A stretch of 64,000 nt of DNA from an uncultured Burkholderiales bacterium (GTDB lineage Bacteria > Pseudomonadota > Gammaproteobacteria > Burkholderiales > Thiobacillaceae). This document shows, in pieces, positions 3,512 through 31,113 of this stretch (its first letter is position 1; each line of letters opens with the position of its first letter). The notes under the pieces are model-generated. The model saw only the letters and a list, made by a program, of their open reading frames with translations, did not search any database and was not told the DNA's origin. The position numbers were made by a program, and so were the translations under genes. Location of the stretch: NCBI GenBank assembly GCA_937949525.1, contig CALEDT010000001.1, forward strand, positions 1 to 64,000. Reading direction: 5' to 3'.

Positions 3512-3673
3512 AACCATGTTCTCCAACGTGATGACCCGCTGCGTCACCGTGCCCGGTTTGCGGCGCCGGGGTGAAGCGCAGGCGCATGCAACATCTGTCA
3601 TGTCGCGCAGCCAACATTGCGTGCCGTCGTATTCGTCTTATTCGTCGCATTTGCAGCCAGGAGGCGAAGCATC

Positions 3674-4753
3674 ATGCAAGGACCTTTGATCGACACCCTC
3701 GTGCGGCAAGGCGTGAGCCGCCGCAGTTTCATGAAATACTGCGCCACGCTGGCCTCGCTGATGGCATTGCCGCCGGCTGCGGGACGCGCCATGGCGCAGG
3801 CCATGGCCGCTGCCCGCCGACCCTCGGTCATCTGGCTGCCGTTCCAGGAGTGTACGGGGTGCACCGAATCGATTACCCGCTCGCATTCGCCCAGCCTGGA
3901 AGGCATGATCTTCGACATGGTCTCGCTCGACTATCAGGAAACCCTGATGGCGGCTGCAGGCCACCAGGCGGAAGAGGCCCTGGAGAAGGCCATCGAGGAC
4001 AACAAGGGCCAGTTCCTGCTGATCATCGACGGCTCGGTCGCCACTGGCCTGGACGGTGCCTATTCGTGCATTGCCGGGCGCACCAATCTGGATCTGCTCA
4101 AGCACGTGGCGCCGCATGCGGCGGCGATCGTCGCGGTGGGTTCGTGCGCGGCGTTCGGTGGCATACCCAAGGCCAAGCCCAATCCGACCGGGGCGGTGGC
4201 GGTGTCCGACATCATCAAGGACAAGCCCATCGTCAACGTGCCCGGCTGTCCGCCCATCCCGGTGGTGATGACCGGCGTGCTGGCGCACTTCCTGACCTTC
4301 GGCAGCCTGCCGGAGCTGGACAGGTTGGGCCGGCCCAAGGCGTTCTACGGTGAGACCATCCACGATCGCTGCTACCGCCGGCCGTTCTACGACCAGGGCA
4401 AATTCGCCAAGACCTTCGACGATGAGGGCGCGCGCAAGGGCTGGTGCCTGTTCGAGCTGGGCTGCAAGGGGCCGGTGACCTACAACGCCTGCGCCACGGT
4501 GAAATGGAACGCGGGCACGTCCTGGCCGGTGGAGGGCGGTCACGGCTGTCTGGGCTGCTCCGAGCCGGATTTCTGGGACGGCGGCGGCTTCTACAAGGCG
4601 CTGTCCATGCCCGCCGATCCGTTGAAGATGGCCGCCACGGCGGCGGTGGTGGGTGCCGCGGCTGGCGTCGCCGCCAGCTTTGCCAACCGCGCCAAGAAGG
4701 GCGGGGCGAAGGCAGCACATGAAACCGTTACCCTGGCCGATCTGGAGAAATGA
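3674..4753 (+). CDS. hynS: Isp-type [NiFe] hydrogenase small subunit
   Basis: A 359-residue electron-transfer subunit. The Tat signal is SRRSFMKYC at about residues 15-23, followed by a hydrophobic core ending near AMAQA, so the enzyme is exported folded. Cluster ligands are visible in ECTGCTES, VGSCAAFGG, PGCPP, HDRCYRR, CLFELGCKGP and GHGCLGCSEP. The proximal motif is CTGC, not the CTCC of oxygen-tolerant group 1d enzymes. A C-terminal hydrophobic segment (about 316-338) would anchor it in the membrane. The ATG at 3674 has a strong site (aggaggcgaag). It is followed by isp1, as in Thiocapsa- and Allochromatium-type hydrogenases. Confidence 0.95.
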   Translation: MQGPLIDTLVRQGVSRRSFMKYCATLASLMALPPAAGRAMAQAMAAARRPSVIWLPFQECTGCTESITRSHSPSLEGMIFDMVSLDYQETLMAAAGHQAEEALEKAIEDNKGQFLLIIDGSVATGLDGAYSCIAGRTNLDLLKHVAPHAAAIVAVGSCAAFGGIPKAKPNPTGAVAVSDIIKDKPIVNVPGCPPIPVVMTGVLAHFLTFGSLPELDRLGRPKAFYGETIHDRCYRRPFYDQGKFAKTFDDEGARKGWCLFELGCKGPVTYNACATVKWNAGTSWPVEGGHGCLGCSEPDFWDGGGFYKALSMPADPLKMAATAAVVGAAAGVAASFANRAKKGGAKAAHETVTLADLEK

Positions 4754-4755
4754 CC

Positions 4756-5415
4756 ATGAACGAAATGCAATTCCTCACCTGGGTGCGCGGTCCCGGTCTG
4801 GACATCGCCGTCGGTATCTTCCTGCTCGGTGTGCTGTGGCGGCTGATCGAGATCTACTTGCTCGGGCGCAAGCAGGACGTCGCGCCCGGACGCCATCGTG
4901 AAGGCGCTTCCGGCCTGCATACGGTGTTCCGGCGTTCGGTGCCGCCGCCCGGCATGGTCAAGCGTTCGCCGGTCAGTTACATCGGCGGTTACATCTTCCA
5001 CATCGGCCTGGCGCTGATCGTGTTCTTCTTCATGCCGCACATCCTGTTCTTCAAGAGCGTGCTGGGCATTTCCTGGCCCGGGCTGCCGTCGCAGTTCATC
5101 GACCTGGTGACGGTGGTGACCATGGCGGCGATGGTGGTGGTGCTGTTCGATCGCATCAACAAGCCGGTCAAGCGCTATCTCAGCACCTTCCAGGACTGGT
5201 TTACCTGGACGCTGACCTTCCTGCCGCTGCTCACCGGCTGGCTGACGGTGCAGCATCTGCTGCTGCCGTACACCACCATGCTGGCATTGCACATCCTGTC
5301 GGTGGAGCTGCTGCTGATCTTCCTGCCTTTCACCAAACTGTTCCATGCGTTCACGGTGTTCGGCTCGCGCTGGTACATCGGCAAGATCAACGGTCATAGG
5401 GGAGTCCCGGTATGA
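4756..5415 (+). CDS. isp1: Isp1, NarI-like cytochrome b subunit of hydrogenase
   Basis: A 219-residue integral membrane protein with about five hydrophobic helices, resembling the gamma subunit of respiratory nitrate reductase. Histidines in the membrane segments (YIFHIG, FMPHILFF, VQHLLLP, LALHILSVE) are candidate haem b ligands. In this hydrogenase class Isp1 passes electrons between the small subunit and the quinone pool or Isp2. I prefer the ATG at 4756, seven bases after ggaga. The ATG at 4750, overlapping the hynS stop as ATGA, would be only one base from that site. Its end overlaps isp2. Confidence 0.93.
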   Translation: MNEMQFLTWVRGPGLDIAVGIFLLGVLWRLIEIYLLGRKQDVAPGRHREGASGLHTVFRRSVPPPGMVKRSPVSYIGGYIFHIGLALIVFFFMPHILFFKSVLGISWPGLPSQFIDLVTVVTMAAMVVVLFDRINKPVKRYLSTFQDWFTWTLTFLPLLTGWLTVQHLLLPYTTMLALHILSVELLLIFLPFTKLFHAFTVFGSRWYIGKINGHRGVPV

Positions 5416-6674
5416 GTGCCTCACTGCAAAAGGGCATCAATGCCCTCAAGGAAGTCATCGATGCCCCCGTCGCCAGCTATTTCAGCAGTTGCGTGCATTG
5501 CGGCCTGTGCGCGGAGGCCTGCCTGTTCTACGTGGAGACCGGCGATCCCAAGTACACGCCGATCCACAAGCTGGAGCCCTTGCGCCGTGTCTACGAGCAG
5601 GAATACACGCTGCTCGGCCGCCTGGCGAAGATGGTCGGGCTGTCCAAGCCGGTGACCGACGACGAACTGGAGTCATGGAAGGAGCTGGTATACGACAGTT
5701 GCACCATGTGCGGCCGCTGTTCCATGGTCTGCCCGGTGGGTAACGACATCGTCTACATGGTGCGCAAGCTGCGCGAGGGTATGGCCGTGTCCGGCCATGC
5801 GCCGGATGGCATCAAGGGCGCGACCAAACGCACGGTCGAGATCGGCGGGCCCATGGGCCTGAAATGGCCGGCCGTGGCCAACGTCATCAAGAAGGCCGAG
5901 GCGGCCACCGGCGAGGCCATCAACGTCGACAAACCCGGCGCGGACTACTTGGTGCTGTTGTCGTCCATGGAGATCGTCAACTATCCGGAGTACCTGGAAG
6001 CGCTGGTGAAGATCTTCAGGAAGGCGGGGCTCACTTTCACGCTGGCTTCGGATGCGTTCGAGGCGACCAACGCCGGCATCCAGATCGGCGCCTCCGACAT
6101 CGCCAAGGTGATCGTCTCGCGCATCGTCAATTCCGCCGAGAAACTGGGCGTGAAGTACGTGCTCTCGCCGGAATGCGGCCACGCCTACATGGCCATCCGT
6201 TGGGAGGGCCCGAACCTGATCGGGCGGCCCTACAAGTTCGAGGTGGTGCACGTGCTGGAACTGCTCGACGACCTGCGCAAGAAGGGCGTGCTCAAGGTCA
6301 AGGACAAGTTCAAGGATCCGCTGATCCTGCACGACCCGTGCCAGATCGTGCGCCGCGGCGGCGTGCTGGACGCGCCCGAGCCGCTGATCCAGAGCGTGGC
6401 GGAGAACTACATCCCGGTGGTCGACAAGCAGAAGTGGAACTGGTGTTGCGGCGGCGGCGGCGGTGCCTCGGCCATCCATACCGAGGAGGCGGAAGCGTTG
6501 CGTGCCAAGGCATTCGGCATCAAGAAGCGCCAGATCGAGCAGGCCGGCGTCGGCACCATGGTCACGTTCTGTGCCAACTGCCGCATCGTCATCGAGGAAG
6601 CCTTCGACCACTACGGCATGAACACCCAGTTGCTCGGCCTCACCGAACTGCTGGCGGAACACCTGGAGGACTGA
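5412..6674 (+). CDS. isp2: Isp2, HdrD-like iron-sulfur protein with CCG domains
   Basis: A 420-residue cytoplasmic iron-sulfur protein. The N-terminal half has two [4Fe-4S] motifs, CVHCGLCAEAC (27-37) and CTMCGRCSMVCP (about 97-108). The C-terminal half carries cysteine-rich CCG-type sequences, including PECGHAY, HDPCQIVRRGG, CCGGGG and CANC, as in heterodisulfide reductase HdrD. In hynS-isp1-isp2-hynL clusters Isp2 links the membrane complex to a cytoplasmic redox partner, proposed to involve sulfur or thiol/disulfide chemistry. The start overlaps the isp1 stop (ATGA), and hynL follows after 4 bp. Confidence 0.94.
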   Translation: MSASLQKGINALKEVIDAPVASYFSSCVHCGLCAEACLFYVETGDPKYTPIHKLEPLRRVYEQEYTLLGRLAKMVGLSKPVTDDELESWKELVYDSCTMCGRCSMVCPVGNDIVYMVRKLREGMAVSGHAPDGIKGATKRTVEIGGPMGLKWPAVANVIKKAEAATGEAINVDKPGADYLVLLSSMEIVNYPEYLEALVKIFRKAGLTFTLASDAFEATNAGIQIGASDIAKVIVSRIVNSAEKLGVKYVLSPECGHAYMAIRWEGPNLIGRPYKFEVVHVLELLDDLRKKGVLKVKDKFKDPLILHDPCQIVRRGGVLDAPEPLIQSVAENYIPVVDKQKWNWCCGGGGGASAIHTEEAEALRAKAFGIKKRQIEQAGVGTMVTFCANCRIVIEEAFDHYGMNTQLLGLTELLAEHLED

Positions 6675-6678
6675 ACAA

Positions 6679-8454
6679 ATGAGCACAGCCCAACGCGTCG
6701 TCGTCGATCCCATCACCCGCATCGAAGGCCATCTGCGCATCGAGGCGGAGACGGACGACAGCGGCAAGATCGTCAACGCCTATTCCGCCGGCACCATGGT
6801 GCGCGGCATCGAGATCATCCTCAGGGGACGCGATCCACGCGATGCCTGGGCCTTCGCCCAGCGTATCTGTGGCGTGTGCACGCTGGTGCACGGCATCGCC
6901 TCGGTGCGTGCGGTGGAGGACGCGCTGAAGTACGAGATTCCGGCCAACGCGCAACTCATCCGCAACCTGATGATCGCGGCACAGTACGTGCACGACCACG
7001 TCATGCACTTCTATCACCTGCACGCGCTCGACTGGGTGGATGTGGTGTCGGCGCTGAGCGCGGACCCCAAGGCCACGTCGGCGCTGGCGCAGAGCATCTC
7101 CAACTATCCCAAATCGTCACCGGGCTACTTCGCCGACGTGCAGAAGAAGGTCAAGACCTTCGTCGAACAGGGGCAGTTGGGTATCTTCGCCAATGCCTAC
7201 TGGGGCCATCCGGCGTACAAGCTGCCGCCGGAAGCCAACCTGATGGCGGTGGCACACTATCTGGAGGCGCTCGCCTGGCAGCGCGACGTGGTCAAGCTGC
7301 ACGCCATCTTCGGCGGCAAGAACCCGCACCCCAACTTCGTGGTCGGCGGCGTGCCCTCGGCCATCTCGGTGCAAACCGGCGGCGGACAGGGCAAGGGGCC
7401 GATGTTCCGCGGCGGCCAGGACGCCACCTCGCTGAACATGGTCGGCTTGCAGATCGTGCAGAACGTGATCAAGCAGATGCGCGACTTCGTCGATCAGGTG
7501 TACGTGCCGGACACACTGGCCATCGCCTCGTTCTACAAGGAATGGGGTGGCATGGGCGAGGGCCTGGGCAACTTCCTGACCTTCGGCGAGTTCCCGGCCA
7601 GGAGCATCTGGGACACCGAGTCGTTCATGATCCCGCGCGGCGCGATCCTGAATCGCGACCTGTCCACCGTCCACCCGGTCGACCTGTACGCCGACAACGA
7701 GGTGCAGGAATTCGTCAACCACTCCTGGTACAGGTACAGCGCCGGCGACGACGTCGGCCTGCACCCGCACAAGGGCGAGACCGAGTTCAACTACACCGGA
7801 CCGAAGCCGCCCTATGACCTGCTCGACGTCGAACAGAAGTATTCCTGGCTGAAGTCGCCGCGCTGGAAGGGCAACTCCATGGAGGTGGGGCCGTTGGCAC
7901 GCGTGCTGATGCTGTATGGCACGGGCCACAAGCAGACCCGGGAACTGGTGGACTTCACCCTCAAGCACCTAGACGTGCCGGTCGGCGCACTGTTCTCCAC
8001 GCTGGGGCGCACCGCCGCGCGCACGCTGGAAACCAAGATCATCGCCGACGCCATGCAGGGCTGGTACGACGACCTGATCGCCAACATCCGCGCCGGCGAC
8101 CTGCGCACCTTCAACGAGAAGCAGTGGGATCCGTCGACCTGGCCGAAGCGCGCGCTGGGCGTGGGCTTCATGGAGGCGCCGCGGGGCGCGTTGTCGCATT
8201 ACATCGTCATCGAGAACGGCCGCATCGCCAATTATCAGGCGGTGGTGCCCAGCACCTGGAACGCCGGCCCGCGCGATCCCAAGGGGGTGCCCGGCGCCTA
8301 TGAGGCGGCGTTGCAGCACAACCACGTGATGCACGACCCGCACAAGCCGATCGAGATCCTGCGCACCATCCACAGTTTCGATCCCTGCATCGCCTGTGCG
8401 GTGCACGTGACCGATCCGGATGGCGAGGAACTGGTGCAGGTGAAGGTCAAATAA
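6679..8454 (+). CDS. hynL: Isp-type [NiFe] hydrogenase large subunit
   Basis: The 591-residue catalytic subunit, which splits or makes H2 at its Ni-Fe site. The N-terminal ligand motif RICGVC supplies Cys64 and Cys67. The C-terminal motif DPCIACAVH supplies Cys570 and Cys573. Processing after His576 would release a 15-residue tail. VDPITRIEGHLR near the N-terminus is also typical of the family. All catalytic residues are present and the length is normal. A ggagg sequence precedes the ATG. Small and large genes are separated by isp1-isp2, which defines group 1e. The protein lacks its own signal peptide and would be co-exported with HynS. Confidence 0.97.
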   Translation: MSTAQRVVVDPITRIEGHLRIEAETDDSGKIVNAYSAGTMVRGIEIILRGRDPRDAWAFAQRICGVCTLVHGIASVRAVEDALKYEIPANAQLIRNLMIAAQYVHDHVMHFYHLHALDWVDVVSALSADPKATSALAQSISNYPKSSPGYFADVQKKVKTFVEQGQLGIFANAYWGHPAYKLPPEANLMAVAHYLEALAWQRDVVKLHAIFGGKNPHPNFVVGGVPSAISVQTGGGQGKGPMFRGGQDATSLNMVGLQIVQNVIKQMRDFVDQVYVPDTLAIASFYKEWGGMGEGLGNFLTFGEFPARSIWDTESFMIPRGAILNRDLSTVHPVDLYADNEVQEFVNHSWYRYSAGDDVGLHPHKGETEFNYTGPKPPYDLLDVEQKYSWLKSPRWKGNSMEVGPLARVLMLYGTGHKQTRELVDFTLKHLDVPVGALFSTLGRTAARTLETKIIADAMQGWYDDLIANIRAGDLRTFNEKQWDPSTWPKRALGVGFMEAPRGALSHYIVIENGRIANYQAVVPSTWNAGPRDPKGVPGAYEAALQHNHVMHDPHKPIEILRTIHSFDPCIACAVHVTDPDGEELVQVKVK

Positions 8455-9885: not shown

Positions 9886-11771
9886 TGTTCCGCGCCGAAC
9901 CGCTCTACCGCGTGCAGATCATGGTGCTGGCCAGCGAGGCTCAGGACATGGCGCTGGAGCTGGCACGCTTCGGCGTGTTCAGCCCGGCGCGCTTCGAGGA
10001 TCAGACGCTGCCCGAGAACCCTGCCGACGCCTACCGCGAAGCCTGGCTGGAGGCGGAGTCGCGGCTGGCCAAGCTGGCGGAGCGGTGCGGCCTCACCGAG
10101 CCGCCGGAAGTGCCGGCGGATGCGGTGCCGCCGTCGCTCACCGATCTGATCGGCCTGAACAACTGGCTCGGCAACGTGTGGAGCACCTGTCTGTCCGCGA
10201 CCGAGAGCGAAACCCGCATCCAGGAAGAGCTGCGCCATCTCGATGCGCTGGAGGAGACGCTGGACAAGCTGGCCCGGCTGGATGTCGACCTGGCGCACCT
10301 GCTGCGCGCCGACGGTCTGCTGGCGGTGCACATCGGCAGCCTGCCCAGCGCGGCGGTGAAGCGCGTGACCGAGGCGCTGGCCATGACCGGCTCGCTGGTG
10401 TCGTTGTTCGACCACGTCGGCGACCAGACCTACGCGGTGATCGCCGGGCCGCGCGAACGGGACGCCGAGGTGCGCGGCGTGCTGGCCCAGGCCGGCTGGC
10501 GGGAACTGCCGGTGCCGGTGGAACTGCGTACCCATCCCGACGCCGCGCGCGCGTGGCTGGCGCAGATGCGGCGTGAGGTGGAGGCGCGCTCCGGCGCGGA
10601 GTGCGCGGCGATCGACGCCCTGCGCGCCCAGTTCCGGCCGCGTCTGGAGGGCGCGCGCCTGAGCCTGATCCTGGCGCGCCCGCTGGCTGAGGCGGCGCTG
10701 GTGGGCGTGCGCGGCCGCGGCGGGCTGGCCTGCCTGACCGGCTGGATACCGCGACGCCAGTTGGAGGCGCTGCGCAGCGCGCTGGACGCGCGCTTCCACG
10801 GCCGCTACTGGCTGCAAACCGCGGAGCCGGCCCGGCATGAGGCGAGCAAGGTGCCGTCCCTGGTACGGCATCCCGCCTGGTTGCGGCCGTTCGCGCCGCT
10901 GGTCAAGGCTTACGGCGTGCCGCGCTACGGCGAGTTCGATCCGACCCTGCCGTTCGCCTTCACCTATCTGTTGTTGTTCGGCGCCATGTTCGGCGACATC
11001 GGCCACGGTGGCGTGATCCTGTTGCTGGCAGTGGCGCTGCGGCGTTTCCTCGGCCGCTTCGTCTGGGTGGGCGTCAGCGCCGGTGCGGTGTCCATGCTGT
11101 TCGGCCTGCTGTACGGCAGCGTGTTCGGCTATGAGGATCTGTTCGAGCCGGTCTGGCTGTCGCCGCTGCATCATCCGACGCATGTATTGACGCTGGCAGT
11201 GACGTTCGGCGTCGGCTTCATCAGCCTGACGCTGTTGATCAATGCGCGCAACCGCCTGGTGGCGGGTCAGGGGGCGCATGCCCTGTTCGATTCCGGCGGC
11301 CTGGCCGGGCTGGTGTTCTATCTCGGCGCGGTGGCCGGTCTGGCCAGTCTGGCCGGCGCGCTGGACCTGGCCACGCCGGCATGGAGCGTGGCGGCGATCG
11401 GGCTGGTCACGGTGGTGGTCTACAAGTGGGCGGAGTCCCATGCCGGGCTGGGCGAACGCATACTGGTGACGCTGATCGAGGCGCTGGAGACCGGCATCAA
11501 CCTGTTCGCCAACACGCTGTCGTTCATGCGCGTGGCGGCGTTCAGCCTCAACCACGTGGCACTGGCGCTGGCCGTGTTCACGCTGGCGCAGGGTCTGTCA
11601 TTCGCCGGGCACTGGATCACCATCGTGCTCGGCAACGTCGTCATCATCGTGCTGGAGGGCGCCATCGTCGCCATCCAGGCGCTGCGTCTGATGTACTACG
11701 AGGGTTTCTCGCGCTTCTACAGCGGTGACGGCCGTGAATTCGTGCCGTTGCGGCTGGTCGGGGCCAAATGA
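9885..11771 (+). CDS. ntpI: V-type ATPase subunit I (membrane stator, ion channel)
   Basis: A 628-residue two-part protein. About the first 340 residues are soluble and helical and should bind the peripheral stalks. The C-terminal half carries about seven to eight membrane helices starting near FAFTYLLLFGAMFGDIGHGG, the most recognisable motif of V0a/subunit I. This half forms the ion half-channels against the proteolipid ring. TLSFMRVAAFSLNH near the C-terminus matches the functionally important Arg-containing helix region. It lies between subunits C and K, as expected for a membrane-sector gene. Confidence 0.95.
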   Translation: MFRAEPLYRVQIMVLASEAQDMALELARFGVFSPARFEDQTLPENPADAYREAWLEAESRLAKLAERCGLTEPPEVPADAVPPSLTDLIGLNNWLGNVWSTCLSATESETRIQEELRHLDALEETLDKLARLDVDLAHLLRADGLLAVHIGSLPSAAVKRVTEALAMTGSLVSLFDHVGDQTYAVIAGPRERDAEVRGVLAQAGWRELPVPVELRTHPDAARAWLAQMRREVEARSGAECAAIDALRAQFRPRLEGARLSLILARPLAEAALVGVRGRGGLACLTGWIPRRQLEALRSALDARFHGRYWLQTAEPARHEASKVPSLVRHPAWLRPFAPLVKAYGVPRYGEFDPTLPFAFTYLLLFGAMFGDIGHGGVILLLAVALRRFLGRFVWVGVSAGAVSMLFGLLYGSVFGYEDLFEPVWLSPLHHPTHVLTLAVTFGVGFISLTLLINARNRLVAGQGAHALFDSGGLAGLVFYLGAVAGLASLAGALDLATPAWSVAAIGLVTVVVYKWAESHAGLGERILVTLIEALETGINLFANTLSFMRVAAFSLNHVALALAVFTLAQGLSFAGHWITIVLGNVVIIVLEGAIVAIQALRLMYYEGFSRFYSGDGREFVPLRLVGAK

Positions 11772-23521: not shown

Positions 23522-24427
23522 TTACTTGAGCTCCGGTTGCAGCGTGACGTGGCGGATGCCATGGATCCGGTCCAGGCGTTCCCGGCTGGCGTGCAGGATG
23601 TGGTCCCAGTCGTCGAAGCTGTCCAGCTCCAAGTGGCCGGACAGCGCGATCTGACCCGACGACAGGGTCCAGATGTGCAGGTCGTGCACGCGCCGCACGC
23701 CGGCGATGTCGCCCAGGTCCGCCGCTACCCGCTCCAGGCTGATGTGCGCCGGCACGCCTTCCATCAGCACGTGCAGGCTCTCGCGCAGCAGGCGCAGCGC
23801 GGAGATCAGGATCAGGCCGGCGACCAGCAGCGACAGGATGGGGTCGATGGGATAGAAGCCGGTGGTCCAGATCACCACGCCGGCCGCCAGTGCGGCGATG
23901 GAGCCGAGCAGGTCGCCGATCACGTGCAGCAGCGCAGCGCGTGTGTTCAGGCTGTCGCCGCCATGGCGCAGCAGCCACAGCACGATCAGGTTCACGCCCA
24001 GGCCGATGGCCGCCACCACCATCACCATGCCGCCCATGACCGGGCGCGGTTCGCGTAGCCGCTCGATCGCCTCATAGGCGATGTAGCCGATCAGCGCCAG
24101 CATCAACAGGCTGTTGAACAGCGCGGCCAACACCTCCAGGCGTACCAGACCGTAGGTGTGGCGCGTCGACGGCGGCTTGCGCGCCAGCCAGGCGGCCAGC
24201 GCCGCCAGTCCCAGCGCGGTGGAGTCGGTGAGCATGTGGCCGGCATCGGCCAGCAGCGCCAGCGAGCCCGACCACACGCCGGCGACCGCTTCCACCAGCG
24301 CGAAGCCGAGCGTGAAGAACAGCGCCTTGAACAGCGCCGCACCGCCGTGTTCGTGGCCGACGTGGTGGCGCACGTGGTCGATGCCGCGATCGACCGAGAC
24401 CCGACCGCCGTCGACGCGTTGCGTCAT
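23522..24427 (-). CDS. Cation diffusion facilitator (CzcD/ZitB-like) metal efflux protein
   Basis: A 301-residue inner-membrane transporter with six predicted helices and a C-terminal cytoplasmic metal-binding domain. The transport-site motifs HMLTD (His64, Asp68) and HVIGD (His168, Asp172) are intact and suggest Zn2+ or a similar ion. The N-terminus is His-containing (DHVRHHVGHEHGG). The start ATG overlaps the nagZ stop (ATGA), so it is the third gene of acpS-nagZ-CDF. That linkage of cell-wall recycling with metal efflux has no obvious functional explanation. Confidence 0.92.
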   Translation of the reverse strand: MTQRVDGGRVSVDRGIDHVRHHVGHEHGGAALFKALFFTLGFALVEAVAGVWSGSLALLADAGHMLTDSTALGLAALAAWLARKPPSTRHTYGLVRLEVLAALFNSLLMLALIGYIAYEAIERLREPRPVMGGMVMVVAAIGLGVNLIVLWLLRHGGDSLNTRAALLHVIGDLLGSIAALAAGVVIWTTGFYPIDPILSLLVAGLILISALRLLRESLHVLMEGVPAHISLERVAADLGDIAGVRRVHDLHIWTLSSGQIALSGHLELDSFDDWDHILHASRERLDRIHGIRHVTLQPELK

Positions 24428-25539
24428 ACGCGCTCCGCTCCGCCGGCGTCGCCGGACGGCAGGGGTGCGGTGGGGTCGTCCAGCGCCAGTTGCGTGTCGG
24501 TCTGGCCCAGTCCGGCGATGTGGCGCAGCGCCGCGGCGTAGCGCGCGCTTTCCAGCAGCGCCATGCGTGAAGGCGGGTGCGGCCGCCCGTGCATGCGCGC
24601 GAAACGGATCAGCGACATCGGCGTCGGCGGCCAGGCCAGGTGACGCAGTACCTGGTCGGCCAGATCCGGGCGGTTGCACACCAGCACCATGTCGCAGCCG
24701 GCCGCCAGCGCCACGCGCGCCCGGGCGGTCACGTCGCCGGCCACGCTGGCGCCCTCCATGGTCAGATCGTCGCTGAAGATCACACCCTCGAAGCCCAGTT
24801 CGCCGCGCAGGATCTCGCTCAGCCAGCGGTGCGAGAAGCCGGCCGGCTGAGAGTCCACGCGCGGATAGACGACATGCGCCGGCATCACGCCGGCGAGACC
24901 CAGATCGATGAGCTGGCGGAAGGGCAGCAGATCGGCGAACTCCAGATCGGACAGCGTGCGCTCGTCCACCGGCACGGCGACGTGAGAGTCCGCCGCGACG
25001 TAGCCATGCCCGGGAAAATGCTTGCCCACCGCGCTCATGCCCGCTTCCTGCATGCCCAGCACCAGCGCGTGCGCCAGCTCGCTCACCGCCTGCGGATTGC
25101 GGTGCAGCGCGCGATCGCCGATCACCGTGCTGCCGCCGTAATCCAGGTCCAGCACCGGCGCGAAGCTGAAATCCACGCCGGCCGCGCGCAGTTCGGCGGC
25201 CAGCACGTAACCGGCGTCGCGCGCCAGACGGCGGGCGCGTTGCGGGTGGTCGTCCCACAACGTGCCCAGCGTGCGCATGGGCGGCAGCACGGTGAAACCG
25301 GTGCGGAAGCGCTGCACGCGGCCGCCCTCGTGATCGACCCCGATCAACAGGTGCGGGCTGCGCAGCGCATGGATGTCCTGGCACAACGCGGCCAACTGTT
25401 CCGGATCCCGGTAATTGCGGCTGAACAGGATTACCCCGCCGACCAGCGGATGGGTCAGGCGCGCGCGTTCGGCCGGGTCCAGGGCATGGCCGGCGACGTC
25501 GCACATCACCGGTCCCAGGGGCAGATGGAGCATACTCAC
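24424..25539 (-). CDS. nagZ: Beta-N-acetylhexosaminidase NagZ
   Basis: A 371-residue cytoplasmic GH3 enzyme. It removes N-acetylglucosamine from anhydro-muropeptides during cell-wall recycling. The GH3 signature KHFPGHGYVAADSH (about 173-186) supplies the general acid His/Asp dyad on its flexible loop. FSDDLTM (about 255-261) holds the nucleophilic Asp. GPVMCDVAGHAL at the N-terminus is typical. The longest frame starts with GTG at 25539, overlapping the acpS stop; an ATG two codons later (25533) is equally possible. The CDF gene is coupled downstream. Confidence 0.96.
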   Translation of the reverse strand: MSMLHLPLGPVMCDVAGHALDPAERARLTHPLVGGVILFSRNYRDPEQLAALCQDIHALRSPHLLIGVDHEGGRVQRFRTGFTVLPPMRTLGTLWDDHPQRARRLARDAGYVLAAELRAAGVDFSFAPVLDLDYGGSTVIGDRALHRNPQAVSELAHALVLGMQEAGMSAVGKHFPGHGYVAADSHVAVPVDERTLSDLEFADLLPFRQLIDLGLAGVMPAHVVYPRVDSQPAGFSHRWLSEILRGELGFEGVIFSDDLTMEGASVAGDVTARARVALAAGCDMVLVCNRPDLADQVLRHLAWPPTPMSLIRFARMHGRPHPPSRMALLESARYAAALRHIAGLGQTDTQLALDDPTAPLPSGDAGGAERV

Positions 25540-25916
25540 GCCCGTTCCATCACGACGAAGGCCACGGCGTATTCGACCTCGTCGGACACGCTCAGATGGG
25601 CCGGGCCCAGTTCCCGCGCGCGCAGCCAGGCCTGCAATTCCGGTGCATAGGCGAAACCGGGCCGGCCGCGCGCGTCATGGGTCACACTGATGGCGGAAAA
25701 CGTCACCGGCGTACGCATGCCGGTACCCAGTGCCTTAGCCAGCGCCTCCTTGGCGGCGAAACGCTTGGCCAGGAAGCGTGTCTTGTCCGCAGCCTGCGCG
25801 TACTCCCCCCATTCCTCCGGGGCCAGCACGCGCTGGGCCAGCCTGCCGCCGTAGCGGGTATGCAACTGGGCGATGCGCTGCGTGGCGACGATGTCGGTGC
25901 CGATGCCGTGGATCAA
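25536..25916 (-). CDS. acpS: Holo-[acyl-carrier-protein] synthase
   Basis: A 126-residue enzyme transferring the phosphopantetheine arm of CoA to acyl carrier protein. IHGIGTDIVATQRI at the start and AKRFAAKEALAKALGTG in the middle supply the conserved metal- and CoA-binding Asp and Glu. No ATG gives the correct N-terminus. The frame runs open upstream without family sequence, and a TTG at 25916 places the start exactly where AcpS normally begins, so I take TTG. The order acpS-nagZ is common in proteobacteria, usually preceded by pdxJ, which is not here. Confidence 0.9.
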   Translation of the reverse strand: MIHGIGTDIVATQRIAQLHTRYGGRLAQRVLAPEEWGEYAQAADKTRFLAKRFAAKEALAKALGTGMRTPVTFSAISVTHDARGRPGFAYAPELQAWLRARELGPAHLSVSDEVEYAVAFVVMERA

Positions 25917-26131: not shown

Positions 26132-27586
26132 ATGCAGCTGAAGCACCTCACCCTCGCCCTGGCGGTCATCGGACTGCCGGCGCACGCCGCCATCGGCACC
26201 ACCGACATCCCCACCTTCGCCGGCCAGGCGGCGGCGCGCGCGGCCACGCCGCAGACGCCGGAGCAGTGGCTGGAACGCATGACCGACTTCACTCGCAACC
26301 TGTCGGCGTTCAAGGATCCCAAGGTGTTCGTACCCTGGGCCAATGCCGTCACCGAACCGGGTTTCTATGTCGCCATGCTCAGCGGCATGATGGATCCCGG
26401 CGGCTGGCTGAACATGATGAACAGCATGGCGCATCCCGACGCGGTGCGTAACGTCGTGCAGTTCGCCGATCCGGAGATCTACATGCGCTGGGCGGCGGCG
26501 AGCGCGGATCCCAATTTCTATACCGCTCTGCTGACGCAGTTGTCGGATCCCGGCAAGCTGATGCGTTGGGCCATGCTGCCGATCGATCCCAAACTGTGGA
26601 ACCTGCTGCTCAGCACGCTGAACCCCAATACCTACATCCGCTGGGGCATGTCGCCCATGGACCCACGCGCCTGGAACCTGGCGGGCACGGTGGCCAACCC
26701 GGCGCTGTATACCGGCATGCTCGGTGCCGTCATCAATCCGTATGCCTATGGCCAGGGCGCCAGCAGTTGGCTGACCTGGAAACCGGCGGCCAGCGTGCAG
26801 GGCGCGGGCAGCTTCAGCATGTGGGATCCCGTCGCCATGCTGGGCAATCTGGTGGGTTACATTCCGGGCGTGAATCCGGCCAGCCTGCCGGGCTTGCCCA
26901 GCCTGGGACTGCCTGATCTGACCAAACTGACCATGCCCACGCTGACGTTGCCGACCTTGCCGGCGCTGCCCGCGGCGCCGGTGATGCCGAGCGCCATGCC
27001 GGCCGCACCGGCCGCCGTCGAGCCGGAACCGGTCAAGGAAGTCCAACCCGCGCCGCAGGTGGTCGCTCCGTCGGCTCCGGCACCCGTCGCTGCTCCGGCA
27101 CCCGTCGCTGCTCCGGCACCCGTCGTTGCTCCGGCACCCGTCGTTGCTCCGGCACCCGTCGTTGCTCCGGCACCCGTCGCCGCGCCGGAGGCGCCGGCTC
27201 CGGACAAGATCGTGCTGGCCGGGGACGCGCTGTTCCAGACCGGCAAGTCCGGCATCCGTGACCTGTCGCGCGAGGGCAAACAGCGTCTGGACGAAGTCGT
27301 CGCCAAGCTGAAGAAGATGGGGCAGATCGAGCAGATCAAGGTCGTCGGCCATGCCGACCCGACCGGCAACGCCGCCGCCAATCAGCGGCTGTCCGAGGCG
27401 CGTGCGCGCTCGATCAAGTCCTATCTGGTGGCCAAGGGCGTCAAACCCGGCGTGATCATGACCAGCGGTCTCGGCGATACCCAGCCGGTCGTGCATTGCG
27501 ACGCTTCGATGCCGCGCGAGCACCTGCGCGAATGCCACGCGCCCAACCGCCGCGTGGAGATCGAAGTCATCGCCAGGGATCGTTGA
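26132..27586 (+). CDS. OmpA-family protein with DP-type tandem repeats and a PAPV linker
   Basis: A 484-residue exported protein. A signal peptide (MQLKHLTLALAVIGLPAHA) is followed by a region (about 62-214) of twelve units 12-13 residues long. Each starts with [DNEH]P, usually has an aromatic at position 5, and is followed by a helix-like stretch (for example DPEIYMRWAAASA and DPNFYTALLTQLS). A hydrophobic middle part precedes six copies of a six-residue Ala-Pro-Ala-Pro-Val repeat (315-350). The C-terminal 110 residues form an OmpA/MotB peptidoglycan-binding domain (VVGHADPTGNAAANQRLSEARA). The last part would bind peptidoglycan; the role of the repeat is unknown. Confidence 0.85.
   Translation: MQLKHLTLALAVIGLPAHAAIGTTDIPTFAGQAAARAATPQTPEQWLERMTDFTRNLSAFKDPKVFVPWANAVTEPGFYVAMLSGMMDPGGWLNMMNSMAHPDAVRNVVQFADPEIYMRWAAASADPNFYTALLTQLSDPGKLMRWAMLPIDPKLWNLLLSTLNPNTYIRWGMSPMDPRAWNLAGTVANPALYTGMLGAVINPYAYGQGASSWLTWKPAASVQGAGSFSMWDPVAMLGNLVGYIPGVNPASLPGLPSLGLPDLTKLTMPTLTLPTLPALPAAPVMPSAMPAAPAAVEPEPVKEVQPAPQVVAPSAPAPVAAPAPVAAPAPVVAPAPVVAPAPVVAPAPVAAPEAPAPDKIVLAGDALFQTGKSGIRDLSREGKQRLDEVVAKLKKMGQIEQIKVVGHADPTGNAAANQRLSEARARSIKSYLVAKGVKPGVIMTSGLGDTQPVVHCDASMPREHLRECHAPNRRVEIEVIARDR
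27074..27181 (+). repeat. Six 18-bp tandem repeats inside the OmpA-family gene
   Basis: Six consecutive copies of an 18-bp unit gctccggcacccgtcgyt run from 27074 to 27181 and encode the Ala-Pro-Ala-Pro-Val-(Ala/Val) linker. Copies differ only at the last codon (gct or gtt) and in the final unit, so copy number could change by slippage without shifting the frame. Confidence 0.9.
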
Positions 27587-27981: not shown

Positions 27982-30096
27982 TCAACGGGTGATGCGGCGG
28001 TAGATATCGGATACCTTGAACGGCAGTTCGGCGACATCGTCGAGGATGACATAGCGCGCGGCGCCGTACATGTGCGGCAGGTAGTCGCGCGCTTCGCGGT
28101 CGATGGTGACGCAGAACGGATGCACGCCGGCGCGGCGCGCTTCCAACAGCGCCATGCGCGTGTCCTCGATGCCGTACTGGCCGCGGTAGCCGTCGAAGTA
28201 GTCGTCCGGACGGCCGTCCGACAGCGTCACCAGCACCCGGGTGCGCGCTTCCACTTTTTTCAACAGATCGGTCAGGTGGCGGATGGCGAAGCCCATGCGC
28301 GTGTATTCCTGCGCGCGGATGCCGGAAATGCGCGCCTTGACCACGTCGCCGTAGCTTTCCTCGAAGGTCTTGATGCGGTACAGCTCGCAGCGTTTGCGCG
28401 TGGTGCCGGAAAACCCGTAGATGGCATAGCGGTCGCCCAGCCGTTCCAGCGCCTCGCACAGCAGGATCAGCGCCTCGCGCTCGGCCTCGTTGATCCAGCC
28501 GCGTGTGCTGCCGCTCATGTCGACCATGAAGGCGACGGCGATGTTGCGCTCGGCGCGGTGCAGACGCACGAACAGGCGGTCCGACATCTCGCTGCCGTCG
28601 CGCGCGTCGGCCATGGCTTCCACCAGCGCGTCGATGTCGACGTCGTCGCCATAGGGCTGGCGCTTGAGCAGCCGGTTCTCGTCGCGCATCGCCTCGAATG
28701 CGCGGTGCAGGTGCTTGACCAGACCGGCGTGCTTGTCCAGCGTGGCACGGGCAAAGTCGTCGAACACCGGCGCGACTTCCTTCTCGCGCATCACGCACCA
28801 GTTCTTGCGGTAATGCTGGCGGCCCATGTCCCATTCCGGATAGAACAGCGCGCCCTGTTCGTGATAGGTGCCCTGCCACACGGCGTCCGGATCGACCGGC
28901 TGCTCGCCGAGCAGGCTGGCGTCGTATTCGCCGTCGCCCGCCGGTACCAGGTAGTCGTGCGGGATTTCGCCGAAATCCAGCCAGACCGAGGTCAGCAGTT
29001 GGCGCACGTCCTCCGGCGGTGCCACCGGCGCGCCGTCCAGGGTCAGTTCCAGCTCCAGGCGGCCGTCGCTGTCATCCACCTCGGCCTCGAATGCGGGCGG
29101 CTGCGCGGCATCGGCGGTGTCCGACTGCGGCTGGTGACGTGACTGTTCTTCCAGCAGTTCCGCCAGCTTCACGCGCAGCCGCGCCTTCTCCTTGTCGCGC
29201 CGCGCGATGAACGCGCCGGCCACCGCGTCCGGGCGCAATTCCCCCTGGAAGCACCAGGCGGCAAAGTCCGGCAACTGGTAGGCGTCGCCGAGCAGGCGCA
29301 GGCTGTCTTCGATGCTCGCATCCGGTTCGCCCAGGCGGCGCGCGAAACGCTGCCACGCGGGCGGCAGCACATCGCCCAGCGCCGTTTTCAGCCGTTCCAT
29401 GTCGCGGTGGAGACCCGGCAGTTCGCGTTCGATGCACGCCGATAGCCGCAACGTTTCCAGGGCGTTGAGCTGCGCCAGCGCGCGCGACGGATGCGGGAAA
29501 GCGGCGCAGGCCTCGATCAGATCGACGCGGAAGGTGCCGAACCGGGTTTGCGCCCACAGCAACGCGACCATGGCCTTGGCCAGGCGGAAGTTGTCGTCCA
29601 TGTCGGGCAGCCGCGCGATCACCGCCGGCAGATAGATTTTGTCGGTGTCGGTGTGCACGGCCTCGCCCTGGACGATGGCCAACTTGCGTCCGGACAGTCC
29701 GCGCACGAAATTGCCCAGCACGCCGGCGACGTCCTCGAACAGCACGCCGGCGGTCAGCTCCAGTTGCTTATCGGCGAAGTTCTCCACCTGTTCGACGGCC
29801 TGCAACGCCGGGCGCAGGCCGACGCGGTCGTAGGTGTCGCAGGCGAACACCGCCCACGCCTCCATCTGCCGCCGGCCCATGCTGGCCAGCAGCTTGGGTG
29901 CGCGCCGGCCGAACTGCCAGCCCAGTTCCAGATGGGTGGTGGCGATACGCTTGATCCAGCCCAGGATGAAGTCGCAGTCCTCGCGCGACAGTCCGGCCAG
30001 TTCGCGCGCCAGGCCCTCCACCTTGTGGAAGGTCAGATCGGCTTCCAGCCAGTCTTCCAGCAGCGCGGCGAGTTCGGCGGCGCGGGCCTCGGACAT
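27982..30096 (-). CDS. cbbO: CbbO/NorD-type von Willebrand factor A protein
   Basis: A 704-residue partner of the CbbQ AAA+ ATPase. The C-terminal VWA domain contains the metal-ion adhesion motif DMSGSTRG (about residue 513) with downstream YGFSGTTRK and LSDGRPDDY. The N-terminal region (LTFHKVEGLARELAGLS; LGWQFGRRAPKLLASMG) matches the CbbO N-domain. CbbO binds inhibited RuBisCO and recruits the CbbQ ring, which remodels the active site. The NorD subfamily is similar, so NO-reductase activation is an alternative. No RuBisCO or nor genes are in the window. It follows cbbQ by 11 bp. Confidence 0.85.
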   Translation of the reverse strand: MSEARAAELAALLEDWLEADLTFHKVEGLARELAGLSREDCDFILGWIKRIATTHLELGWQFGRRAPKLLASMGRRQMEAWAVFACDTYDRVGLRPALQAVEQVENFADKQLELTAGVLFEDVAGVLGNFVRGLSGRKLAIVQGEAVHTDTDKIYLPAVIARLPDMDDNFRLAKAMVALLWAQTRFGTFRVDLIEACAAFPHPSRALAQLNALETLRLSACIERELPGLHRDMERLKTALGDVLPPAWQRFARRLGEPDASIEDSLRLLGDAYQLPDFAAWCFQGELRPDAVAGAFIARRDKEKARLRVKLAELLEEQSRHQPQSDTADAAQPPAFEAEVDDSDGRLELELTLDGAPVAPPEDVRQLLTSVWLDFGEIPHDYLVPAGDGEYDASLLGEQPVDPDAVWQGTYHEQGALFYPEWDMGRQHYRKNWCVMREKEVAPVFDDFARATLDKHAGLVKHLHRAFEAMRDENRLLKRQPYGDDVDIDALVEAMADARDGSEMSDRLFVRLHRAERNIAVAFMVDMSGSTRGWINEAEREALILLCEALERLGDRYAIYGFSGTTRKRCELYRIKTFEESYGDVVKARISGIRAQEYTRMGFAIRHLTDLLKKVEARTRVLVTLSDGRPDDYFDGYRGQYGIEDTRMALLEARRAGVHPFCVTIDREARDYLPHMYGAARYVILDDVAELPFKVSDIYRRITR

Positions 30097-30107: not shown

Positions 30108-30938
30108 TCAGAACACCGAGGACGACAGTTCCTGGATGGCCGCGAGCATGTCGGCGTCGTCGGTCACCGCCTGCGCCACCGCACCGCGACAGGCCGCGAC
30201 CGGATCGATGCCGCCATTGATCAGCTTGCCGGCGTGCACCAGCAGGCGGGTCGAAGCGCCTTCCTCCAGGCCGCTGCCCTTCAGGTTGCGCGTCATGCGC
30301 GCGAACTTCACCAGTTTGTCGGCCATGGCCGCGTCCACCCCGGATTCGCTGGCGACGATACGCCGCTCCAGTTCCGCGGTCGGGTAGTCGAACTCCAGCG
30401 CGACGAAGCGCTGTCGCGTCGATTGCTTGAGATCCTTGAGCACGCTCTGGTAGCCGGGGTTGTAGGAGATCGCCAGGCAGAAGTCGTCCGGCGCTTCCAG
30501 CAACTGCCCAAGCTTTTCCATCGGCAGCGTGCGGCGGTCATCGGCCAGCGGATGAATCACCACCATGGTGTCCTTGCGCGCCTCGACGATTTCGTCGAGA
30601 TAGCAGATGCCGCCGACGCGTACCGCGCGGGTCAATGGCCCATCGACCCAGACGGTCTCGCCGCCCTTGACCAGATAACGGCCGACCAGGTCGGACGCGG
30701 TGAGATCGTCATGGCACGATACCGTGATCAGCGGGCGTTGCAGGCGCCAAGCCATGTACTCCATGAAACGGGTCTTGCCGCAGCCGGTCGGGCCTTTCAG
30801 CAGGATCGGCAGCTTGTGCCGGTAGGCCGCCTCGAAGATGGCGATTTCGTTGCCGACGGCTTCGTAATAGGGTTGTTTGCGGATGTAGTGCTCTTCGGGA
30901 GCGAGGGCGTGGGCGTCCAAGGAAGACCTCTGGGTCAT
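30108..30938 (-). CDS. cbbQ: CbbQ/NorQ-type MoxR AAA+ ATPase
   Basis: A 276-residue AAA+ motor of the MoxR clade. Walker A is GPTGCGKT (about 48-55), Walker B is [11 protein letters not shown] (about 107-117), and [21 protein letters not shown] supplies the sensor and arginine-finger region (quoted in part: [14 protein letters not shown]). [13 protein letters not shown] at the start is typical of CbbQ. Hexamers of CbbQ with one CbbO act as RuBisCO activase in chemoautotrophs. The ATG at 30938 is the first giving the correct N-terminus. It is divergent from miaA across 175 bp. Confidence 0.88.
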
Positions 30939-31113
30939 GCGTGGGGTGCGAGCCGTGATTGTCGCCGAGGGGGCGAGCGGTGCAACCCTGTCGAAGACAT
31001 GGGATCGTGGCGTGGAGGGGACCGGACGGTGGAGCGCCGGCGGCGGGTACGGGATCGATGGTCGCCGCGCGCCGACGGGCGTGTTGGGCGCGAGCGCAGG
31101 ATAATGCCATTCC

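Follow-up and report, generated by a model that had tools for sequence, protein, structure and literature searches.

The gene at 26132..27586 of the window (the whole stretch of 64,000 nucleotides that was analysed) encodes an exported protein in which twelve units of 12 or 13 residues, each with a proline in second position, precede a C-terminal OmpA domain. To judge from the sequences, the repeat defines a conserved, multi-copy family of exported proteins without a curated family model; its members are read as tandem-repeat proteins of short helices, and there is a fair chance that their function is new. Our best explanation, to which we give somewhat less than an even chance, is that of a new periplasmic helical-repeat family that would hold or carry zero-valent sulfur, the OmpA-fused copy being tethered to peptidoglycan.

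Architecture of the window gene

The gene is organised as follows, residue 62 corresponding to base 26315 and the stop codon ending at 27586:

26132..27586, plus strand: whole gene, exported DP-repeat protein with a C-terminal OmpA domain (484 aa, ATG at 26132; from the open frame and relatives)
26132..26188, plus strand: Sec-type signal peptide MQLKHLTLALAVIGLPAHA, with a probable cleavage site placed by eye
26189..26314, plus strand: N-terminal segment ahead of the regular units, holding a TDFTRN stretch (from alignments)
26315..26773, plus strand: twelve units of 12-13 residues, with D/N/E/H-P at positions 1-2 and mostly bulky or aromatic residues at positions 5 and 8
26774..27199, plus strand: irregular tail that closes the repeat domain, followed by the Pro/Ala/Val-rich linker (from the translated sequence)
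27200..27583, plus strand: OmpA domain with its flanks (the Pfam match spans about 27233-27502)

The unit starts given in a preliminary description of this DNA (residues 62, 75, 88, 101, 113, 126, 139, 152, 164, 177, 189 and 202) are exact by translation; its end base, 26774, overshoots residue 214 by one base. Less regular sequence flanks the units, namely a segment at about residues 41-60 before them and the motifs WDPVAM and NPAS after residue 214. The coupling of the repeat to an OmpA domain through a Pro-rich linker, claimed in the same description, is borne out by the translation and by PF00691, which matches with 68.7 bits (E 5.9e-19) against a curated cut-off of 27.2 and thus places the C-terminal domain among those of OmpA-family proteins; the match covers residues 370-459 in the numbering of P0001, which has two extra residues at its start. 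The Asp of GHAD and the Arg of LSEARA stand at positions that we take to be those of the peptidoglycan-binding residues in OmpA domains. Both the letters and the length of the tail and linker part vary among 19 OmpA-fused relatives, and the region coding for the linker contains, by eye, an 18-base tandem repeat at 27080-27187 of the window, giving APVVAP-like units.

That the window protein carries twelve 12/13-residue units opened by D/N/E/H-P, as first described, is confirmed by its sequence and by shuffling: the longest chain of prolines at 12/13 spacing within residues 22-260 numbers 12, a length never reached in 20,000 composition shuffles, whose maximum was 7. When residues 61-216 are matched against themselves, a lag of 13 gives 25 matches against 9.3 (z 5.3), and the count is also raised at lags of 25 (z 5.2), 26 (z 3.9), 38 (z 3.2) and 51 (z 6.4); the peaks at 13, 25 and 51 indicate a 25-residue double unit superimposed on the unit pattern.

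Conservation and predicted fold of the units

Position-by-position conservation was scored over an unevenly sampled alignment of 57 proteins from the window's GTDB family or from L038, a Thiobacillaceae MAG; it comprises 20 OmpA-fused sequences (the window protein and 19 relatives whose OmpA part was judged by eye) and 37 others, rows beginning L001, L007, L008 and L039 having been excluded as duplicates or as too distant. None of the twelve units, scored at its position 1, is missing from more than one of the 57 rows. Of 681 unit cells, 674 have proline at position 2, and all have D, N, E, H, Q, S or T at position 1. Bulky residues (F, W, Y, L, I, M or V) fill position 5, mainly with aromatic side chains, in 97% of cells, which makes it the most conserved bulky site, and position 8 in 90%; they account for 63%, 57% and 67% at positions 9, 12 and 13, while at positions 3, 7, 10 and 11 polar or small residues prevail (2 to 18% bulky). 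At positions 4 and 6 both kinds are frequent, with bulky residues in 56% and 47% of cells, which blurs the amphipathic pattern. As read from these sequences, the profile fits, without proving, an amphipathic helix opened by a D/N-P cap.

The helix-like character suspected in the preliminary description reappears in two AlphaFold runs on two-sequence alignments, in which a short helix follows nearly every xP; at mean pLDDT values of 36.0 and 40.8, the predicted models are compatible with helical units but prove nothing about the fold, including the short solenoid suggested in that description.

Searches against known families

The preliminary description had placed the pattern in no repeat family known to it, and none is named in the Pfam, NCBIfam or PDB sequence searches either. 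Pfam gives no other domain in the N-terminal half of the window protein, and none of the 25 NCBIfam models listed for this protein exceeds its cut-off. Among the named repeat families of Pfam (TPR, HEAT, Sel1, LRV and others), only LRV_2 (PF25591) matches any of the seven proteins of the window genome, at E 1.2; this match is not significant and covers residues 32-50, outside the units, although LRV_2 presumably resembles the window's repeat in having short repeat units. For the repeat, NCBIfam yields one match (E 0.19), the PDB sequence search no significant solved chain (best E 0.27 and 0.72), and PHROGs three families, none of them hit by more than one of the nine members searched (best E 0.0056). 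Two further matches, both on Met-rich distant relatives, were set aside as likely effects of composition: JmjN, at 23.7 bits below its cut-off of 26, and GerD on L123, at 31.5 bits just above its cut-off of 29.5 with no single stretch passing. Among the open-access papers listed as matches, none could be recognised from its title or the start of its abstract as dealing with the repeat.

Spread of the family

The window genome itself contains seven matches: the window gene, one copy each on contigs C51, C59, C41 and C9, and two adjacent copies on C29, one of which is partial (query residues 32-147). A profile (A1) built from these seven and used to search related genomes finds the repeat domain in 52 of the 117 genomes of the window's GTDB family, spread over 9 of its 12 genera, with 2 to 10 matches per genome. 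L038 is the one clear named relative; it shares 53% identity with the C51 copy, which served as query, and 46% with the domain of the window protein. The window's GTDB family is probably Thiobacillaceae. Farther out, the order sample of 399 genomes gives matches in 7, five of them in the window's own genus and one of these the window genome; the class and phylum samples give them in 8 of 369 and 2 of 120 genomes, both counts including the window genome. Since the order and class searches scored no more than 6 or 7 candidates in any one genome, absence from these samples is weak evidence. Ten genomes beyond the family (G299, G438, G517, G547, G590, G596, G687, G713, G826 and G956), spanning eight GTDB families and at least two classes, carry weaker matches.

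An origin from phages or plasmids was considered and rejected. One protein query and three patterns found no match in viral contigs, and one protein query found none in plasmids, the queries in both cases being relatives, not the window copy.

The OmpA-fused clade and its surroundings

In a midpoint-rooted FastTree phylogeny of the repeat domain, all 20 sequences with an OmpA fusion group in a single clade (support 0.974), and within the sampled set the simplest reading is thus a single fusion, kept since. Copies lacking the OmpA domain are common, making up 37 of the 57 aligned rows, and the long frame L117 has no OmpA part. A gene for an H+-pyrophosphatase-like protein lies within a few kb at 13 of the 19 fetched OmpA-fused loci, and a CbbO-like gene is near at least 6 of the 19; these genes were recognised by eye from gene starts, Pfam having been applied to the window's own neighbours and to one pyrophosphatase fragment. 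The neighbours of the window gene are:

27982..30096, minus strand: VWA-domain protein, CbbO-like (PF13519)
30108..31025, minus strand: CbbQ/NirQ/NorQ-type AAA ATPase (PF07728 and PF08406)
25536..25907, minus strand: 4'-phosphopantetheinyl transferase, AcpS-like (PF01648)
24424..25539, minus strand: glycosyl hydrolase family 3 protein, NagZ-like (PF00933)

These neighbours, CbbQ/CbbO-like on one side and AcpS-/NagZ-like on the other, do not suggest a function for the window gene. Elsewhere in the window, at 3617-8454, gene starts read by eye outline an uptake-hydrogenase-like operon with small and large subunits and their partners.

Distant relatives and their neighbours

The twelve-unit spacing, whose persistence in homologues the preliminary description had made decisive, holds in part: the unit places are kept in the 57 aligned proteins and are only partly retained farther out. 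Long proline chains at 12/13 spacing occur in 4 of 16 distant proteins (24 prolines in L091, 24 in L092, 15 in L123 and 11 in L124); nine others have chains of only 3 to 8, and the remaining three show a 9/10 spacing instead, in chains of 10 to 13. Strict periodicity thus fades with distance, and the 9/10 spacing may represent a sister repeat class. Methionine makes up 6 to 30% of these 16 proteins (19% in L091, 30% in L092), and only 7.8% of the window's repeats.

Sulfur genes lie beside repeat genes in 4 of the 10 distant genomes. In G956, the gene order on contig C2 (L123) is Sulf_transp (PF04143), DrsE_2 (PF13686), two Toluene_X/FadL genes (PF03349), a gene for a CxxCH protein, the repeat gene and DUF302 (PF03625); from Sulf_transp to DUF302, these genes form a compact cluster (L123, 1195-10249) that has the look of a sulfur-uptake module. 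A second repeat gene of G956 stands beside a rhodanese gene and about 6 kb from a gene that by eye is AprA-like, for which Pfam returns FAD_binding_2 and Succ_DH_flav_C, and the third, best-matching copy, on contig C4, adjoins molybdate-ABC-like genes recognised by eye. In G299 (L091), a Sulf_transp gene precedes the repeat gene and a DUF302 gene follows it; G438 has, by eye, the same arrangement, with a thioredoxin-like gene (AhpC-TSA) between the transporter and the repeat gene. In G517 (L085), SoxZ (PF08770) and SoxY (PF13501) have four such genes in their vicinity, two found by the profile and two more, rich in Met/NP, by eye; the farthest is about 5.5 kb from SoxZ. A gene that by eye is Sulf_transp-like is present as well. 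The stretch L085 9078-11590, close to soxYZ, encodes Met-rich proteins with 9-residue units of the NPATYMxWM type and a Met/NP-rich protein of 331 aa (10595-11590) with 27% Met and a CAACH haem motif. In the other six distant genomes, no sulfur gene was recognised in the stretches examined, some of which are short contigs. The same holds for the window genome: judged by eye from the starts of genes, the stretches read around its copies, on six contigs, showed no recognisable sulfur gene.

The named Gammaproteobacteria MAG L039 contains CxxCH genes and DUF302, together with a Met-rich gene built of 9-residue units. DUF302 recurs beside repeat genes, with a Pfam match at L091, L039 and L123 and by eye at L092, where the DUF302-like fragment has no Pfam match; this recurrence suggests a shared role for DUF302 and the repeat genes.

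Co-occurrence with Sox and Dsr

A SoxZ match is present in all ten distant genomes, and DsrA exceeds its cut-off in nine, all but G596. DsrA matches below the cut-off are unspecific, controls such as E. coli giving them too. In the class sample, taken without the window genome, 6 of the 7 repeat-bearing genomes have DsrA over cut-off, compared with 105 of the 361 others (Fisher p 0.0036, kinship ignored); for SoxZ over cut-off the figures are 7 of 7 and 187 of 361 (Fisher p 0.011, kinship ignored), G713, with E 7.6e-16, being counted among those that pass. The seven genomes belong to five families, and the absences of the repeat in this sample, where at most seven candidates per genome were scored, are uncertain. 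Within the window's family neither link appears: the repeat is present in 46 of the 104 genomes with a SoxZ match and in 6 of the 13 without, and in 42 of the 94 with DsrA over cut-off and 10 of the 23 without. Many genomes in these counts are incomplete. In G000, four truncated SoxZ matches of equal score lie at contig ends on C1 (67881-68006), C2, C15 and C42; the assembly probably breaks there at several near-identical sox copies.

These counts bear directly on an account in which sulfur plays no part: the repeat would be an envelope spacer or scaffold, a helical rod of fixed length that connects peptidoglycan with the outer membrane or displays a partner, and its occurrence in sulfur bacteria would merely reflect the lineages that were sampled. 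The fixed places of the units in the aligned proteins, the OmpA anchor with its Pro-rich linker, the frequent proximity of OmpA-fused genes to H+-pyrophosphatase-like or CbbQ/CbbO-like genes and the lack of a Sox or Dsr link within the window's family all agree with such a rod. Against it stand the OmpA-less copies, common even in an alignment of uneven sampling, and the relatives in the eight other families, every one of which is in a genome with SoxZ, with sulfur genes nearby in four of ten. We regard this account as a serious but doubtful alternative. The surface scaffold proposed in the preliminary description is likewise possible; yet the OmpA-fused proteins make up a single clade within a larger family whose distant relatives point to sulfur metabolism.

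A candidate role in handling periplasmic sulfur

In the explanation that we prefer, the repeat family would act in the periplasm of sulfur oxidisers that use Sox and Dsr. We infer that each unit forms a short amphipathic helix with a D/N-P cap and packs against its neighbours through the bulky residues at positions 5, 8, 9 and 12-13; the aromatic and Met side chains of these helices would then form a hydrophobic, sulfur-friendly surface. Helices lined with Tyr, Trp and Met may thus bind zero-valent sulfur, as polysulfane or S8, the obvious insoluble ligand in the periplasm, the protein serving either as a carrier from the outer membrane to YeeE-like importers or as a coat on sulfur deposits. 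The OmpA-fused window copy would be the form that tethers this sulfur-binding surface to peptidoglycan. In favour of a sulfur role are the fixed units of the 57 proteins, the long Met-rich chains of L091 and L092, the SoxZ and DsrA matches of the distant genomes and the sulfur genes beside repeat genes in four of them. Against it count the lack of a Sox or Dsr link inside the window's family, the stretches in the window genome and in six distant genomes where no sulfur gene was recognised, the molybdate-ABC-like surroundings of the best-matching G956 copy, the modest Met content of the window's repeats, the mixed positions 4 and 6 and the low confidence of both models. The set of genes in G956, with its FadL-like channels, repeat protein, DUF302, Sulf_transp and DsrE2, would fit a relay from the outer membrane to the cytoplasm; that FadL-like channels could pass sulfur is a suggestion of this analysis alone, and passages of PMC4287430 and PMC10531304 offer no support for sulfur uptake through FadL or the outer membrane, dealing instead with fatty-acid export (FadLD) and Omp40.

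The closest parallel on the import side comes from Hyphomicrobium, for which part of PMC11582611 reports that the YeeE-like protein SoxT1A delivers sulfur into the cytoplasm. Some distant repeat genes likewise adjoin Sulf_transp genes, in one genome together with DsrE2, whereas the neighbour of soxT1A in that account is a periplasmic thioredoxin and not a repeat protein (PMC11582611). On the side of sulfur deposits, the parallel is with SgpA-SgpD of the sulfur oxidiser Allochromatium vinosum. As described in part of PMC10386293, SgpA-C are proteins of extreme hydrophobicity, a Sec signal peptide is predicted for SgpD, whose helices consist of its repeats, and all four proteins have regularly spaced prolines; the window family shares with them repetitiveness and regular prolines, and with SgpD export. 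By that description, with which alone the comparison is made, the prolines of SgpD mostly follow a P-x2-P pattern instead of the 12/13 spacing, and SgpA-D coat sulfur deposits (PMC10386293), which for the window family is no more than a proposal.

A coat on sulfur deposits of the kind attributed to SgpA-D (PMC10386293) is nearly as good a version of our explanation as the relay. Its strict form, in which the repeat proteins would be sulfur-globule coat proteins with no carrier role and a convergent counterpart of SgpA-D, overlaps with this version. Besides the regular prolines and repeat-built helices, the presence of several matches per genome would suit a coat. The different proline spacing of SgpD, as the same part of PMC10386293 describes it, sets the two groups apart, and neighbours of importer type suit a carrier better, so a role as coat and nothing else seems unlikely to us.

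The methionines allow yet another account, in which helices rich in Met would serve as a metal or electron-transfer partner, by binding copper or by docking to cytochromes of the periplasm. Apart from a Met content of up to 30% in relatives, it can draw on the haem motif of the Met/NP-rich protein of L085 and another in L039, on CxxCH-coding genes near repeat genes at L003 (seen in L094), L039, L083 and L123, and on cbb3-assembly-like genes seen by eye near the L084 copy; with the modest Met content of the window copy, a position 5 that is mainly aromatic and CxxCH genes that are common in such genomes, we consider it improbable.

Sulfur import into the cytoplasm is called poorly understood in part of PMC11582611, where the sulfur species that is transported is said to need further investigation. 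The repeat family, whose distant relatives sit in Sox/Dsr genomes, some of them beside importers, FadL-like channels and DsrE2, supplies a concrete candidate for the periplasmic part of such an import route, and its regular 12/13-residue unit adds a repeat that no searched library names. In its most specific form, which is possible but doubtful, the proposal is that of an undescribed class of periplasmic proteins whose chain of proline-capped Tyr/Trp/Met helices, each of 12/13 residues, would solvate zero-valent sulfur and move it from FadL-like entry to YeeE-like importers in Sox/Dsr bacteria, with an OmpA-anchored form held on the cell wall.
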